Shown here: one piece after another, positions 29,297 through 51,384 of the stretch
Position numbering within the stretch: position 1 is the stretch's first letter
How the letters are laid out: each line of letters opens with the position of its first letter
Assembly: GCA_013619125.1 (NCBI GenBank)
Contig: JABXKS010000064.1
Span: forward strand, 1 to 64,000
Length of the DNA stretch: 64,000 bases
Direction of reading: 5' to 3'
Origin: Clostridiales bacterium
Lineage (GTDB): Bacteria > Bacillota > Clostridia > Tissierellales > GPF-1
Translations under genes and position numbers: made by a program
Notes under the pieces: model-generated
What the model was told of the DNA's origin: nothing
Seen by the model: the letters and a program-made list of their open reading frames with translations, nothing else
The model's database searches: none

Positions 29297-29317
29297 GAAA
29301 CCAATCATATATCGTCA

Positions 29318-29432
29318 GTACTCCGAGTCTTCTCACCTACCGCAATGCCATGGTGCTTAGACCGATGGGTTACAAGGGAAACCTTCTAGCCTCCCGTATT
29401 TGGAAAGGAGATGCTCAGGGACTTATTAGCCG
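29318..29432 (+). ncRNA. Probable molybdenum/tungsten cofactor (Moco/Tuco) riboswitch aptamer
   Basis: Structured leader before the metal-type ABC operon. Visible features: an AAGG-GAAA-CCTT hairpin capped by a GNRA loop (near 29374-29385), extended by GGTTA/TAGCC pairing, then CTCCCGTATTTGGAAAGGAG, a segment I recall from the Moco riboswitch upstream of E. coli moaA. A transcription terminator follows at 29440-29463, so ligand binding could control read-through. The call rests on this remembered conserved segment, on the helices and on the downstream importer; a covariance-model search would settle it. Confidence 0.65.
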
Positions 29433-35079: not shown

Positions 35080-35323
35080 ATAAAAAAAGTCCTTAAACCC
35101 ATATTGGGTTTAAGGACGAATCTCTCCGCGGTGCCACCTTTGTTGGATGCGACTTGCATCCCGCTTATCCCGTAACGGCGGGAACCGGGTCTGACTATGT
35201 ATTCATCAGCCATTTTGCAAGTCCATTCACCAAAAATCTCTAGACAAGGCTTCCACCATTCCCTGTTCGCTATCCTGATTCTTTTGGCTACTCTTCTTGC
35301 GCATCAATATTTCCTATCTAATT
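35080..35323 (-). ncRNA. Tryptophan T-box riboswitch leader
   Basis: The T-box sequence AGGTGGCACCGCGG is on the minus strand at 35126-35139; its TGGC matches the acceptor end of a tRNA with discriminator G, as in tRNA-Trp. A stem I region (about 35190-35310) contains a GGGAATGGTGGAAGCC segment and a TGG codon at 35230-35232 in the place expected for the specifier loop. A strong terminator follows at 35081-35117. The transcription start is predicted near 35323. Confidence 0.92.
35081..35117 (-). terminator. T-box controlled terminator
   Basis: A 13-bp stem (35089-35101 with 35105-35117) followed on the minus strand by seven T. Pairing of the T-box with uncharged tRNA would favour the alternative antiterminator. 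Confidence 0.9.
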
Positions 35324-35329
35324 GCATTC

Positions 35330-35358
35330 ATTGTAACAAATAACTATGTATTAATCAA
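35330..35358 (-). promoter_or_regulatory. Promoter of trpS
   Basis: TTGATT (35353-35358) and TACAAT (35330-35335) with a 17-bp spacer on the minus strand. The -35 overlaps the 3' end of the upstream TetR gene. Confidence 0.75.
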
Positions 35359-35977
35359 CCAGATTGTCCGTCTGTGCCGGAATTTGAAAATAATTTTCAA
35401 TCAATTGCATCAAGGCCAATTCTGCCTCTTCATCACTTTTCGATCCCTGAATCAAAACGATCAAGCTTTGCATAAATCCGCTGGCCAAAGCCTTTGTATA
35501 AATGGGTAAAATCGTTCGCCCTAAGACTCGCTCTCGCTCCACAAACACTGCATGAATCCACCCGACCATATCCTGCAAGGTATTTCCATACAGATAACCT
35601 TCACTCTTGGTCAACACCAAAATCGATTCGTCCCGATGCTTGCGAATGATGCGCACTAAAAATCGTGTCATATTCATTATGGCTTCCTGGTAGGGTTTGC
35701 CCTTCAGGTCAAAGACCCCCGTCGGCGGTGTCTGCAGGCTGACCCAGTCTTTGGTGGTTTCCTTCAAAATCTTGTCAATCTCCCCTAAAAAGGGATCCAC
35801 AATCGCGCCGAAAAGACTCGCTTTATTTTCAAAGTATCGGTACAGATTCCCCACGGTCATATCCGATTTCTGAGCAATCTGCCGCATAGATGTATTTTGA
35901 TAACCCGTAAGTAGAAAGGCAGCCTTCGCTTCCTTCATAATTCTCTTTTTAACGGATTCCTTTTGAATTTGAGGCAT
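35351..35977 (-). CDS. TetR-family transcriptional regulator
   Basis: A 208-residue repressor-like protein with helix-turn-helix TSMRQIAQKSDMTVGNLYRY and the following YFENKASLFGAIV. It begins 12 bp after the Fur-family gene, with AAGGGGGAAG upstream of the ATG, so the two are probably co-transcribed. I see no terminator between it and the trpS promoter. Its targets are not obvious; the nearby histidine operon is one possibility, but there is no direct support. Confidence 0.85.
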   Translation of the reverse strand: MPQIQKESVKKRIMKEAKAAFLLTGYQNTSMRQIAQKSDMTVGNLYRYFENKASLFGAIVDPFLGEIDKILKETTKDWVSLQTPPTGVFDLKGKPYQEAIMNMTRFLVRIIRKHRDESILVLTKSEGYLYGNTLQDMVGWIHAVFVERERVLGRTILPIYTKALASGFMQSLIVLIQGSKSDEEAELALMQLIENYFQIPAQTDNLVD

Positions 35978-44768: not shown

Positions 44769-45740
44769 TTATCGTTCATCCATCAAATGGCAGGCCACAA
44801 AATGCTCTGGTTCCACTTCCTGCAAAACTGGAACTTCCAGCTTGCATCGTTCTGTCGCATAACGACAGCGGGTATGAAATCGACAACCCGATGGTGGATT
44901 GATCGGACTTGGTACATCCCCCTCCAACAAAATTCGGTTTTTTACAGCCTTCGGATCCGGAATCGGAACGGCTGACAAAAGCGCTTGCGTATAGGGATGC
45001 AAGGGATTGGCGTACATGGGTTTAGCTGGTGCCAACTCCATCATATTCCCCAAATACATCACCCCTACGCGATCCGAAATATGACGAATAACATTCAAGC
45101 CGTGGGCAATAAATAAATAGGTCAGACCAAACTCTTCCTGCAGATCATCCAAGAGATTCAAAACCTGCGCTTGAATCGACACGTCCAATGCCGATACCGG
45201 CTCATCACAGACAATCAATTTGGGTTTCAGCGCCAAGGCGCGTGCAATACCGATCCGCTGCCGTTGCCCGCCACTGAATTCATGCGGGTACCGGTTTCGA
45301 TAAAAGGATGGCAACCCCACCGTATTCATCAATCGCAAAACCTCTTGCTCCAATTCTTTCTTCCCAAGATTCAGATGCAGTTTCATAGGTTCTGTCACAA
45401 TTTGTTCAACCGTCATCCTTGGATTCAACGAGGCATAGGGATCCTGAAAAATAATTTGGATATCCCGAGCCAAGGCTCTCCGTTCACGGCCAGACTGATG
45501 AGTGATATTCTTTCCTTCAAAAAACAATTCACCGGCCGTGGGTTCCAGCAACTGAACAATCAATTTTCCCGTTGTGGATTTCCCGCAACCCGATTCCCCC
45601 ACTAAACCAAGGGTTTCTCCTGCGGCAATGGAAAAACTTAAGTCGTCAACGGCACGCACCATCTTTTTTCCTCTAGATAAAAAACCCTGTTCAACAGGAA
45701 AGTGTTTCGTTAAGCCCCGAACTTCCAATAATGGCTTCAT
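44769..45740 (-). CDS. Oligopeptide/dipeptide ABC transporter ATPase (OppF/DppF)
   Basis: One of two ATPases of the peptide importer, 323 residues. Walker [13 protein letters not shown], signature [15 protein letters not shown] and Walker [13 protein letters not shown]. The C-terminal oligopeptide-transporter domain has the Cys cluster [14 protein letters not shown], which in related proteins can bind an iron-sulfur cluster. Starts with ATGA overlapping the OppD-like gene. Last gene of the operon. Confidence 0.9.
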
Positions 45741-46711
45741 TCAACTTCCCCCTTTTCTTCATATAAAAAGCAACGTACTTCCCGATCGCCTATCATCTGG
45801 ATTTGCGGCATCTTTTGCTTGCAAATTTCCATAGACTGCGTACACCTCGGCTCAAAGGGACATCCTTCCGGCATATGCATCGGATTCGGTACATTGCCTT
45901 CAATCATTGTCAATCGACCTGACTCGCCTTCCATTTTTGGAATAGATGCAATCAAGCCCTGGGTATAAGGATGCTTTGGATCATCAAATAGATCCACCAC
46001 ATTTGCCATTTCCATCACCTTGCCGCAATACATAACTACAACACGATCCGCCGTTTCAGCGACAACCCCCAAATCATGGGTAATCAAAAGAATCGATGTG
46101 CCAGTCTCTTCCCGCAAACGATTCATCAGATCCAATATCTGCGCCTGAATGGTGACATCCAATGCAGTGGTTGGTTCATCGGCAATCAAAAGTTGCGGTT
46201 CCGTTGCCAAAGCCATGGCAATCATCACGCGTTGTCGCATCCCGCCGCTCATCTGATGAGGATAATCATCCACCCGAATCTCAGGGGATGGCAGACCCAC
46301 CTTATTCAGCATATCAATGGCAATAGCGCGTGCTTCTTTTTTCGAAATTTTATTGTGGCGACGAATCGCCTCCGTAATTTGTTTTCCAACTGGATACACA
46401 GGATTCAAGGAGGTCATAGGCTCTTGAAAAATCATCGAAATTTCATTTCCACGGACATCCTGCATTTCTTTGTTTGTCTTCTTCAACAGGTCCTCTCCAT
46501 CAAAGATGATTTCCCCGCCTTCGATTTTTCCCGGTGGCGATGGAATCAATCCCAGCACCGAAAGACTCGTTACACTCTTCCCACTGCCTGATTCGCCAAC
46601 CAAAGCGACAACCTCTTTTTTTCCAACCGAGAACGAAACGCCATCAACGGCTTTCGCGACCTTTCCTTTGATATGGAAGTGCGTCTCCAGTCCTTTTACT
46701 TCTAGTAACAT
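45737..46711 (-). CDS. Oligopeptide/dipeptide ABC transporter ATPase (OppD/DppD)
   Basis: Second ATPase of the importer, 324 residues. Walker [13 protein letters not shown], signature [15 protein letters not shown] and Walker [13 protein letters not shown]. The C-terminal domain has the cluster [14 protein letters not shown]. It follows the OppC-like permease after 9 bp with AGGAGGGG before the ATG, and overlaps the next gene by 4 bp. Confidence 0.9.
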
Positions 46712-47632: not shown

Positions 47633-48637
47633 CTACGAATACTTGATACGTGGATCTAAAACACTATAGATCAAATCCACGCCCAAATTTACCAATACAA
47701 ATATGATCGACATCATCATAACGGTTCCCTGCACCACAGGATAATCCGATTTCAAAATGGATTCCACCGTGTAGGAACCGACTCCCGGCCATGAGAATAC
47801 CGTCTCGGTCAAAACCGCGCCGCCCAAAAGGCCGCCCATCTGCAAACCGATCACCGTGACAATCGGGATCATGGCATTTCGAAGGGCATGCCTTACAATA
47901 ACAAGCCGCTCCTCTATACCCTTTGCTCGTGCGGTACGAATATAATCCTGCCCCAAGGTTTCCAGCATCGTGGAGCGAGTCATCCGCGCGATAATCGCCA
48001 TGGAATACATGGCCAACGCTGTACCCGGCAAGATAATATGTTCCACCGCACTCTTAAATGCCGCTGTATTTCCGGTAAGAATACTGTCCAAGATATACAA
48101 GCCTGTCACATGCGCCGGATCATATCCCATCTGAATGCGACCAGATACCGGGAACCACCCCAGCTTTAAGGAGAAGACCACAATCATAATCAAACCCAGC
48201 CAGAAGATCGGCATCGACACCCCCATCAAACTGATCGTCATGGATGCGTAATCAAAGATGGTATTTCGCCTCACAGCTGAAATAACACCTAAAGTCACCC
48301 CAACAACTGAGGCAAAAATAATTGCAAATAAAGCCAACTCAATCGTCGCTGGAAAACGCGACATCACTTCCGTAAATACCGGTGTGTGTGTAAATAATGA
48401 GGTTCCAAAATTCCCGTGCAGCATCCCGGTCAAGAAATTCCAATACTGTTGAACCAATGGCAAGTTAAATCCCAATTCCTCGCGCAAGGCCGCCGCGTCC
48501 GCATCCGTTGCATGCTGACCCAAAATCGTCAGCGCCGGATCCGATGTGAATAAATGCATCACCGTAAAAACCAATACGGAAACACCAAACACGACGGGAA
48601 TTAGATACAATAATCTTCTTAAAATATATTTTCCCAT
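47633..48637 (-). CDS. Oligopeptide/dipeptide ABC transporter permease (OppB/DppB)
   Basis: Membrane subunit, 334 residues, with the family's N-terminal helix RRLLYLIPVVFGVSVLVF, the coupling region RSTMLETLGQDYIRTARAKG and the following ETVFSWPGVGSY. It follows the binding-protein gene after 57 bp that hold a terminator-like hairpin (48653-48685), which probably lowers expression of the membrane subunits relative to the binding protein. Confidence 0.9.
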   Translation of the reverse strand: MGKYILRRLLYLIPVVFGVSVLVFTVMHLFTSDPALTILGQHATDADAAALREELGFNLPLVQQYWNFLTGMLHGNFGTSLFTHTPVFTEVMSRFPATIELALFAIIFASVVGVTLGVISAVRRNTIFDYASMTISLMGVSMPIFWLGLIMIVVFSLKLGWFPVSGRIQMGYDPAHVTGLYILDSILTGNTAAFKSAVEHIILPGTALAMYSMAIIARMTRSTMLETLGQDYIRTARAKGIEERLVIVRHALRNAMIPIVTVIGLQMGGLLGGAVLTETVFSWPGVGSYTVESILKSDYPVVQGTVMMMSIIFVLVNLGVDLIYSVLDPRIKYS

Positions 48638-48652
48638 AGAAACCCCCTAAAC

Positions 48653-48694: not shown

Positions 48695-50251
48695 CTACTT
48701 GTCTACGCCAAACAGATTAACACGTCCTGTTGGATGCAATTCATATCCTGTAACGTTTGTTCTCCAAGCGCCAAGATCCAAAGCATGTGAGATTGGTACC
48801 CAAGGAACCTCTTGAGCCAACACTTCTTGTGCTTGCCTGTAAGTTTCCCAACGCTCTTCGCCGTTTGGTAATTCACGACCTTTGTTCATCAAAGCGTCAA
48901 ACTCAGGGCTTGACCAACCAGTATCGTTCAACCCGCCAATGCTAGCCCCTTCAAGCAATGTCAAAAAGTTGTCCGGATCCCCATTGTCGCCAATCCATCC
49001 CATGAAGTAAATATCGCCTTCATATTGGTTTACTTTGTCTCGATAATCTGTCCAAGGATATACAACAACTTCTGCTGTAACTCCAACTTCATTCAAATAC
49101 GCTTGAACAGTTTCAGCCAATTTTCCACCGGCTGGGTTGTAAGGACGTGGGTTTGAGTAGCAAATGATTTTGATTGGCGTTTGATCCAATCCCAATGCAG
49201 CAACTTCGGCCTTCGCTGCTTCAACATCATATTCCGTCAAACCGGGATCCCCGTTGTATCCAGGCATAAAGTCTGGGAAGAAGCTTTCCGCTTTTGTCGC
49301 ATATCCTTGATAAAGGAAATCTACGATTTCTTGCGTGTTGATTGCTTTTGCAATGGCAACACGTGCTTCTTTGTTATCAAATGGTGCGCGAGTGGTATTG
49401 AACGCCATGTAATTGATGTTCATGCCCGCTACCTTTTCAACTTCTACTTCTCCGCTAGATTCCAGTTGCTCCACATCGTTGAAGCTGATTCCGTCGATCA
49501 TGTCGACTTGACCTGACATCAATTCTGTTGCGCGAACCGCATTCTCTTTTGTTACCTTAAAGATCAATTTATCAAAGCTTGGTTTTTCATCGCCCCAGAA
49601 ATCTTCGTTTTTCAGAAGTGTAATGGATTCGTCTTTTTTCCAAGAATCAAATTTGTATGAACCAGTCCCAATTGGGTTTTCCGCTACATCATCACCAGGC
49701 TTATAGATCTGTACAGAAAGACTCATGGCCAAGTTTGCAATAAACGGTGTTGACGGTTTAGTCAATATAATTTTAACTGTCAGAGGATCGACTGCTTCAA
49801 CCGATACAACATCTGCAAATGTAAAAGATGCATACGGCATATCAGACGTTCTGTTGTCAGCCAATTGACGATCAAAGTTCCAAACAACATCTTCAGCAGT
49901 CAAATCGCTGCCGTCATGGAATTTCACGCCTTCACGTAGATGGAAGAGATACTCAGTTCCATCTTCTGAAATGTCCCAGCTCTCTGCCAACCAAGGCATA
50001 ATTTCAGTAGAACCATCTTTATAGCGTACCAGCGTATCTGCGATTTGATTCAATACCTTTGACGATTCTCCGTCTGATACAAACGCTGAATCAAGACTGA
50101 TAGAATCAGATCCCCGTGCATAAACGAAGATCTTAGGTTCCGCTTGTGCCGGCTCGTCGCCATCTGCTGCTGGTTGCGCGCCACAGCCCGCTGATAGAAT
50201 CATTGCCACCAAAAGTAGTAATGCAATCCATGTTTTTTTCATGTTTTTCAT
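48695..50251 (-). CDS. Peptide-binding lipoprotein of ABC transporter (OppA/DppA family 5)
   Basis: Extracytoplasmic substrate-binding protein, 518 residues. The signal peptide ends in the lipobox ILSAGC. The mature protein has the family-5 hallmarks: LAESWDISEDGTEYLFHLREG, VKFHDGSDLTAEDVVWNF and a C-terminal VPWVPISHALDLGAWR. The peptide specificity (dipeptide, oligopeptide, glutathione) cannot be read. First gene of the operon; promoter TTGACA-17-TAATAT at 50301-50329 and AAGGGG before the ATG. Confidence 0.9.
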   Translation of the reverse strand: MKNMKKTWIALLLLVAMILSAGCGAQPAADGDEPAQAEPKIFVYARGSDSISLDSAFVSDGESSKVLNQIADTLVRYKDGSTEIMPWLAESWDISEDGTEYLFHLREGVKFHDGSDLTAEDVVWNFDRQLADNRTSDMPYASFTFADVVSVEAVDPLTVKIILTKPSTPFIANLAMSLSVQIYKPGDDVAENPIGTGSYKFDSWKKDESITLLKNEDFWGDEKPSFDKLIFKVTKENAVRATELMSGQVDMIDGISFNDVEQLESSGEVEVEKVAGMNINYMAFNTTRAPFDNKEARVAIAKAINTQEIVDFLYQGYATKAESFFPDFMPGYNGDPGLTEYDVEAAKAEVAALGLDQTPIKIICYSNPRPYNPAGGKLAETVQAYLNEVGVTAEVVVYPWTDYRDKVNQYEGDIYFMGWIGDNGDPDNFLTLLEGASIGGLNDTGWSSPEFDALMNKGRELPNGEERWETYRQAQEVLAQEVPWVPISHALDLGAWRTNVTGYELHPTGRVNLFGVDK

Positions 50252-50300
50252 TTTTCCCCTTCTTTCTAAGATATTTCATTTGCGTAACATTTTATAATTA

Positions 50301-50329
50301 ATATTACCTCACATCTGTGTCTGTGTCAA
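50301..50329 (-). promoter_or_regulatory. Promoter of the oligopeptide transporter operon
   Basis: Perfect -35 TTGACA (50324-50329) and -10 TAATAT (50301-50306) with a 17-bp spacer on the minus strand. It lies downstream of the small-RNA terminator, so the transporter operon is transcribed independently of that RNA. Confidence 0.85.
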
Positions 50330-50401
50330 GTACAAAGCATGTCATTTTTGTAATTGTAATCGATATATGTAAAGGAATGTTCATAAATTGTCAGATATTT
50401 C

Positions 50402-50528
50402 TGTAAAGAAAAAACGCGAGAGGCCGACTCTCGCGTTTTTCTGACATCAAAAAGGGGGTTGACGTCACACCTATTGAAATAGCCTTACAGCTATAGCAAA
50501 CATACTCATGTCTTTTTCGTAACACTTT
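50402..50528 (-). ncRNA. Candidate small RNA with C-rich loop
   Basis: A short, self-contained transcription unit of about 125 nt: promoter at 50535-50563, strong terminator at 50403-50440, no convincing coding sequence (a frame from ATG near 50533 has no ribosome binding site and runs into the terminator). Predicted structure: an ATAGC/GCTAT hairpin, then GACGTCAA paired with TTGATGTC (about 50448-50471) exposing a CCCCCTTT loop, then the terminator. C-rich loops of this kind in Firmicute small RNAs pair with ribosome binding sites (GGGGG-type), so a trans-acting regulator is plausible. It is not the leader of the peptide operon, which has its own promoter downstream. Confidence 0.65.
50403..50440 (-). 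terminator. Terminator of the candidate small RNA
   Basis: Perfect 13-bp stem (50410-50422 with 50428-50440, loop of five) followed on the minus strand by TTTTTTCTTT. The A/T runs on both sides could also work in the plus direction. Confidence 0.9.
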
Positions 50529-50534
50529 GTTCAT

Positions 50535-50563
50535 AGTTTAGTGCATGATCGTATTAAAGTCAA
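50535..50563 (-). promoter_or_regulatory. Promoter of the candidate small RNA
   Basis: TTGACT (50558-50563) and TAAACT (50535-50540) with a 17-bp spacer on the minus strand, about 120 bp before the terminator. Confidence 0.8.
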
Positions 50564-50601
50564 GAACTAGATTCAAAGATTTCCGTTGAAAATGTTTTCA
50601 T

Positions 50602-50629
50602 TAAAAAACGCCCGGATCAACCGAACGCT
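50602..50629 (-). terminator. Terminator of the RND-Nudix-acyltransferase operon
   Basis: Wobble-containing hairpin (ACGCCCGG about 50608-50615 with CCGAACGCT 50621-50629) followed on the minus strand by TTTTTTAAT, just after the stop at 50635. Confidence 0.75.
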
Positions 50630-50634
50630 TTTTC

Positions 50635-51384
50635 TTATCTTTCCATCTTATATTTTTCCAAGTTCTGCTCAATGATGCCACGTACATGACCGCTTAATGC
50701 TTTCTTTTCACTGCGGTCCATATTCGCCGTTGGAATTGGCGCATCGATCACAACTCGCACCTTTGCCTTCTCGATCAGGTTGCTGCCTTTTTTCTGAATC
50801 CAATAGCTGCCTACCATGGTGACCGGCACGACCTCCGCCTTTGCCTTTAACGCCAAGTTCATGGCACCCGACTTAAAGGGCAGCATTTCCTCTGAGGTCG
50901 AACGCGTACCCTCTGGATAAATCATCATGGGATATCCGTTTCGAACAAACTCTGCTCCCTCTTGAATCGCCGCAAGGCTTTGCCTTAAATCTTTGCGATC
51001 AATCAAAACACAATGATCCAGTTTCATTAAGTACGGAACTATTGGTAATTTCGAAATCTCCTTCTTCGCGACAAATCCAAGGCTGCGATCCATAAATAAA
51101 AATGGAAAAAAAGGATCAGCGTGGCCCTGATGATTGCCCACCAAAACATAATGCCCATGCTTAGGTAAATTTTCCTGGCCAATAATCTCAACTTCTATGC
51201 CAATAATTTTCATCAAACGACGGACAAATCGCTTCAACATGGCAATCGTCACCTGGTCCGCTTCTTCCGCTTTCCCTTTTGCATTCAGCCGATTTATTTT
51301 GGGTGCCCACATGGGACCAATTCGCATCCATGTGATACCGATAATTGCATAAAGTATTGCTATAAGTTCCCGTATAACTGTCAT
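50635..51384 (-). CDS. 1-acyl-glycerol-3-phosphate acyltransferase (PlsC family)
   Basis: Membrane-associated acyltransferase of 249 residues, probably making phosphatidic acid from lysophosphatidic acid. An N-terminal hydrophobic helix is followed by the catalytic GNHQGHADPFF (H-x4-D), the FVAKKEI substrate segment, the MIYPEGTRST motif and VVPVTMVGSY. The start at 51384 follows GGAGG. It is the last gene of the RND operon, 24 bp after the Nudix gene; whether it functions together with the pump is unclear. Confidence 0.9.
   Translation of the reverse strand: MTVIRELIAILYAIIGITWMRIGPMWAPKINRLNAKGKAEEADQVTIAMLKRFVRRLMKIIGIEVEIIGQENLPKHGHYVLVGNHQGHADPFFPFLFMDRSLGFVAKKEISKLPIVPYLMKLDHCVLIDRKDLRQSLAAIQEGAEFVRNGYPMMIYPEGTRSTSEEMLPFKSGAMNLALKAKAEVVPVTMVGSYWIQKKGSNLIEKAKVRVVIDAPIPTANMDRSEKKALSGHVRGIIEQNLEKYKMER

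Follow-up and report, generated by a model that had tools for sequence, protein, structure and literature searches.

A probable small RNA gene with an exposed C-rich loop beside a peptide-importer operon, and its candidate targets

The locus lies on the minus strand of contig JABXKS010000064.1, from a Clostridiales bacterium, within a stretch of 64,000 nucleotides that was analysed as a whole and is called the window in the following. It occupies positions 50563-50409, between the terminator of an acyltransferase gene and the separate promoter, P2, of a peptide importer; the features are collected in Table 1. An earlier note on this DNA had proposed an independent minus-strand unit, from a TTGACT-17-TAAACT promoter to a terminator, for an RNA of ~125 nt with a 13-bp terminator stem. 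The unit is borne out by conservation of its promoter, loop and terminator, with small corrections: the RNA measures ~120 nt and the terminator stem 13-14 bp. The C-rich loop is likewise present and exposed, but the stem closing it has 9 bp, one more than claimed. Along the RNA, the predicted fold gives the order hairpin 1, linker, 9-bp C-rich hairpin and terminator.

Table 1. Features of the small RNA (sRNA) locus and of its candidate targets
Feature	Position	Strand	Remarks
Terminator of acyltransferase gene, AAAAAGCGTTCGGTTGATCCGGGCGTTTTTT	~50632-50602		Upstream of the sRNA unit
sRNA promoter P1, sigma-A-type	50535..50563	-	TTGACT 50563-50558, 17-nt spacer, TAAACT 50540-50535; both hexamers invariant in three congeners
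Small RNA, ~120 nt	50409..50528	-	From sequence, conservation and fold; 5' end inferred 7 nt past the -10, 3' end at the terminator U-tract
Hairpin 1	50474..50499	-	Stem largely preserved, loop and some stem positions variable among three species
Hairpin 2, loop CCCCCUUU at 50458-50451	50442..50467	-	9-bp stem UGACGUCAA/UUGAUGUCA; invariant in three species
Rho-independent terminator	50409..50441	-	13-14 bp stem AAAAACGCGAGAG/CUCUCGCGUUUUU, 5-nt loop UCGGC, U-tract; kept in three species
Peptide-importer promoter P2, TTGACA-17-TAATAT	50301..50329	-	Separate from P1, downstream of the sRNA terminator
Candidate site 1, oppA Shine-Dalgarno AAGAAGGGG	50256..50264	-	9 predicted pairs (one G-U) with loop CCCCUUUUU
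oppA	48695-50251	-	Downstream of P2
Candidate site 2, oppB Shine-Dalgarno AGGGGG	48643..48648	-	Permease gene 47633-48637; predicted pairing
Candidate site 3, oppF Shine-Dalgarno AAAAGGGGG	45748..45756	-	ATPase gene 44769-45740; predicted pairing
argR-like gene	G000:C2:77836, G001:C1:1908109, G002:C54:38200		

Promoter patterns resembling P1 occur 11 times in the region, against 9.3 +/- 2.5 expected from shuffled sequence, and the sRNA terminator was absent from the output of a terminator scan over the same region, probably because its T run is absorbed by its A-U pairs. Since promoter and terminator patterns are at chance level, the anatomy is not compelling by itself, and the unit was evaluated by comparison with two congeners, G001 and G002, the three genomes representing one genus; the locus of G002 lies on contig DAOUQF010000007.1 (Eubacteriales bacterium isolate CSMAG_119).

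In the three-way alignment the RNA (50402-50534) is 91% identical, with values of 100% for the C-rich hairpin 2, 97% for the terminator and 86% for the 29 nt of P1; the adjoining intergenic DNA before P1 reaches only 55%, and the coding sequences taken as comparators 69% (acyltransferase) and 79% (oppA). A run of 82 consecutive invariant columns extends from the 3' arm of hairpin 1 through the end of the terminator, and variability is highest in the 5' half of the RNA, which contains hairpin 1. Because promoter, RNA and terminator are conserved while the flanks diverge, the unit stands above chance, and the region 50402-50563 is almost certainly a genuine small regulatory RNA gene, preserved almost unchanged in sequence across three related species. 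A comparison with related genomes had been suggested in order to see whether the terminator alone is conserved: promoter, loop and terminator are all kept in both congeners. In these relatives P2 retains the -35 hexamer TTGACA, with TAGAAT or TAACAT as -10. An inverted repeat, TGAAAACATTTTCA (50587-50600), is found ~24 nt upstream of P1, and corresponds to TGAAATCCTTTTCA and TGAAATTCTTTTCA in the relatives; its outer bases are common to all three species and it resembles a cre site lacking the central CG. Judged by its sequence, it is a possible regulator site.

The sRNA is present in one copy per genome. A covariance model built on the three sequences matches just these three among 249 genomes of the order, and in a sample of 391 genomes from the class no genome but that of the window itself scores above noise (165.9 bits, the next best hit reaching 28.4). 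Hits outside the genus, with E values of 0.001-1, score like chance terminators; those inspected, at the order level, are coding stretches or ordinary terminators. Two of them, L076 and L090, contain AAAAGACATGAGTA inside a gene and were rejected as homologues. The search of plasmids and phages gave no match for the sRNA, and an exact match to the hairpin was not found in viral contigs. The Rfam search that had been proposed as a check, performed with cmscan at gathering score on the whole window, and up to E = 10 on 50240-50660, assigned the sRNA to no family.

Against shuffled sequences the sRNA has a folding z-score of -3.8, the two relatives reaching -4.3 and -4.8; the terminator contributes much to these values. 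The eight loop bases of hairpin 2 have a predicted unpaired probability of ~1.0 in all three species. Variation in hairpin 1 falls mostly in the loop; two stem positions exchange U-G with C-G and A-U with G-U, and a single pair is lost in one of the three sequences. The covariation analysis was uninformative, as it relies on only three near-identical sequences.

The loop CCCCCUUU is complementary to Shine-Dalgarno sequences of the AAAGGGGG type, and the three importer sites of Table 1 carry such sequences. Predicted duplex energies are -13.7 kcal/mol for the oppA site and -13.0 kcal/mol for the oppB site in all three species; the oppF site gives -16.3 kcal/mol in the window and -15.9 to -18.2 across the three species. 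When the sRNA and the oppA leader are folded jointly, the loop pairs with AAGAAGGGG, with a gain of ~7 kcal/mol over the separate folds. Among the 61 genes of the window, ranked by loop complementarity, oppF is first and oppA second, followed by a TetR gene (3), a formiminotransferase-like gene, hutU (5) and oppB. In each of the three genomes the importer is also the top five-gene run of the syntenic region, and only 1 of 150 shuffled loops equals the importer score of the real one. Its match to the anti-Shine-Dalgarno sequence is average (mean percentile 0.47), with oppA in the weakest quarter.

Correction for Shine-Dalgarno strength, by regression, was applied to a G001 sample of 487 genes in 520 kb (evenly spaced 400 kb plus the syntenic 120 kb), where the importer ranks first of 196 same-strand five-gene runs. 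Its lead is small (0.144, against 0.145 and 0.146 for the next runs), and five-gene runs overlap; moreover, the opp target had been spotted by eye prior to its test, and the ranking concerns sampled rather than genome-wide targets. As the three genomes are close relatives of one genus, the target sites that they share are not independent evidence. On these sequence comparisons the adjacent importer, through oppA, oppB and oppF, is most likely the best-supported target, and the fit of the loop to its sites suggests that the sRNA tunes food uptake.

The earlier note had named hutU and the TetR gene as targets and had called for target prediction against ribosome-binding sites. Complementary sites are indeed found at both genes, but AAGGGGG is a common Shine-Dalgarno variant, occurring at 93 places in the window's genome, and AAAGGGGG sites in general do not clearly exceed AAAGGAGG control sites in conservation; the opp importer is the better candidate. 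Counted by eye, ~17 of 29 AAAGGGGG sites are conserved, against 25 of 51 for the AAAGGAGG control, so that nothing across the genome points to a large conserved regulon. Sites of a further control, AAAGGGAG, are conserved less often, but this is a weaker Shine-Dalgarno sequence and hence an unfair control. For all peptide importers taken together, the enrichment corrected for Shine-Dalgarno strength has a z of -2.7 with opp and a non-significant -1.6 without it, so that nothing is claimed for importers other than opp.

Two individual sites were observed outside the operon. A second peptide importer (G000:C35, L152, L157, L165) includes a DppB-type permease gene with a AAAGGGGG Shine-Dalgarno in all three species, which is among the strongest loop matches, and an argR-like gene (MRKYARQSHILKLIKLHEIET) is preceded by AAAAGGGGG in each of the three. 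As far as sequence can tell, both are attractive candidates for further targets.

The results are best accounted for by a stand-alone, Hfq-independent sRNA of ~120 nt whose loop blocks Shine-Dalgarno sites, chiefly those of the downstream importer mRNA, and this reading is considered probable. The sRNA would be transcribed from its own promoter P1 and ended by its own terminator; its exposed loop would pair in the cell with G-rich Shine-Dalgarno sequences, ribosome entry would be blocked, and the presumed effect would be repression. The main target would be the importer mRNA encoded directly downstream, at the oppA, oppB and oppF cistrons, with possible additional ones in the second peptide importer and among amino-acid genes. 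The proposal of a trans-acting Shine-Dalgarno blocker, already contained in the earlier note, gains support from the conservation of promoter, loop and terminator, from the loss of the candidate peptides in relatives and from the failure to find an antiterminator.

A different possibility is that the RNA is a cis-acting leader with which the importer mRNA begins, a regulated terminator setting read-through into oppA. The RNA does lie directly upstream of oppA, on the same strand, in an order preserved in three species. This arrangement has to be set against the separate promoter P2 between terminator and oppA, and against the lack of a conserved antiterminator pairing: the best upstream partner reaches -5.7 to -9.1 kcal/mol, versus -18.4 kcal/mol for the terminator, and differs among the three species, so that the alternatives are weak and non-conserved. 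In addition, no Rfam leader matches, and conservation peaks in a short C-rich hairpin rather than in a fold of aptamer size; a leader is thus held to be improbable. A short peptide gene across the locus has a negligible probability. Two frames exist in the window, one of 47 codons (50391-50534) and one of 12 (MSMFAIAVRLFQ). In G001, however, the first, which crosses the terminator, ends after only 10 codons, in G002 the second is 7 codons long, and a convincing ribosome-binding site was found for neither. Each frame being broken in one relative, a conserved peptide is excluded, in agreement with the earlier note, which saw no ribosome-binding site in support of a peptide.

The RNA might also be trans-acting with its main targets elsewhere (argR, the second peptide importer, hutU, PTS genes), the adjacent importer being a neighbour whose Shine-Dalgarno sequences are alike. 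The presence of the argR and DppB-type permease sites in all three genomes speaks for this, as do the high window ranks of hutU and the TetR gene; the importer run, however, comes first in the syntenic region of each genome and also in the G001 sample, which makes the alternative rather unlikely. Binding of a protein or of another small RNA, as a sponge, through the invariant hairpin could explain why stem and terminator are also invariant, beyond what pairing with Shine-Dalgarno sequences needs. No specific partner was found, however, and a search for Hfq (PF17209) detected none in G000, G001 and G002 while giving matches in control genomes, e.g. B. subtilis; such a role is very improbable.

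The preferred reading, a blocker of importer Shine-Dalgarno sites, has parallels among known sRNAs. RsaE and RoxS, of Staphylococcus and Bacillus, are stand-alone sRNAs of similar size to the one described here, with unpaired C-rich motifs pairing with Shine-Dalgarno sequences. Their motifs are UCCC, whereas the present loop reads AACCCCCUUU and UCCC is absent from the RNA; here, moreover, the gene adjoins its proposed target operon. Within the opp3 operon RsaE targets several cistrons, and both opp3B and opp3A are bound at their ribosome-binding sites (PMC3861533). Assignment to the RsaE class, as first suggested, holds as an analogy but not as family membership: neither the RsaE nor the LhrC covariance model matches the window at gathering score or 50240-50660 up to E = 10. 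In Listeria, the CU-rich loops of LhrC cover Shine-Dalgarno regions, and oppA is a proven target, which is repressed (PMC5880928); for the present sRNA the same target is predicted. LhrC is multicopy and has three CU-rich sites (PMC5880928), in contrast to the single copy and single C-rich loop found here. FsrA and CsfG of Bacillus subtilis share C-rich regions with RoxS, in a similarly simple fold, and Firmicute sRNAs act mostly without Hfq (PMC8216469); the present sRNA differs in lacking a family match.

A promoter-to-terminator unit, deduced from conserved anatomy, and an accessible C-rich loop, predicted to be complementary to ribosome-binding sites, make the RNA a probable member of the functional class of C-rich-loop, Shine-Dalgarno-pairing sRNAs. 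It would be a new, genus-limited addition to this class and is, by the family test, none of RsaE, LhrC, RoxS, FsrA and CsfG. A more specific proposal is made tentatively, as plausible but short of probable: that a genus-specific, operon-linked C-rich sRNA represses the same-strand importer at several cistrons without Hfq, having converged on opp control independently of RsaE and LhrC. If true, the class of C-rich Shine-Dalgarno blockers would gain an sRNA unrelated in sequence, from a poorly studied group in which Hfq is not detected, which would suggest that sRNA control of peptide uptake arose more than once in Firmicutes.

Two other RNA elements were recognized in the window by the Rfam search. 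A T-box leader (35109-35313 on the minus strand, 108 bits, above gathering score) lies just downstream of the TetR-type gene 35351-35977, and a molybdenum/tungsten cofactor (Moco) riboswitch is located at 29310-29426 on the plus strand (69.6 bits).
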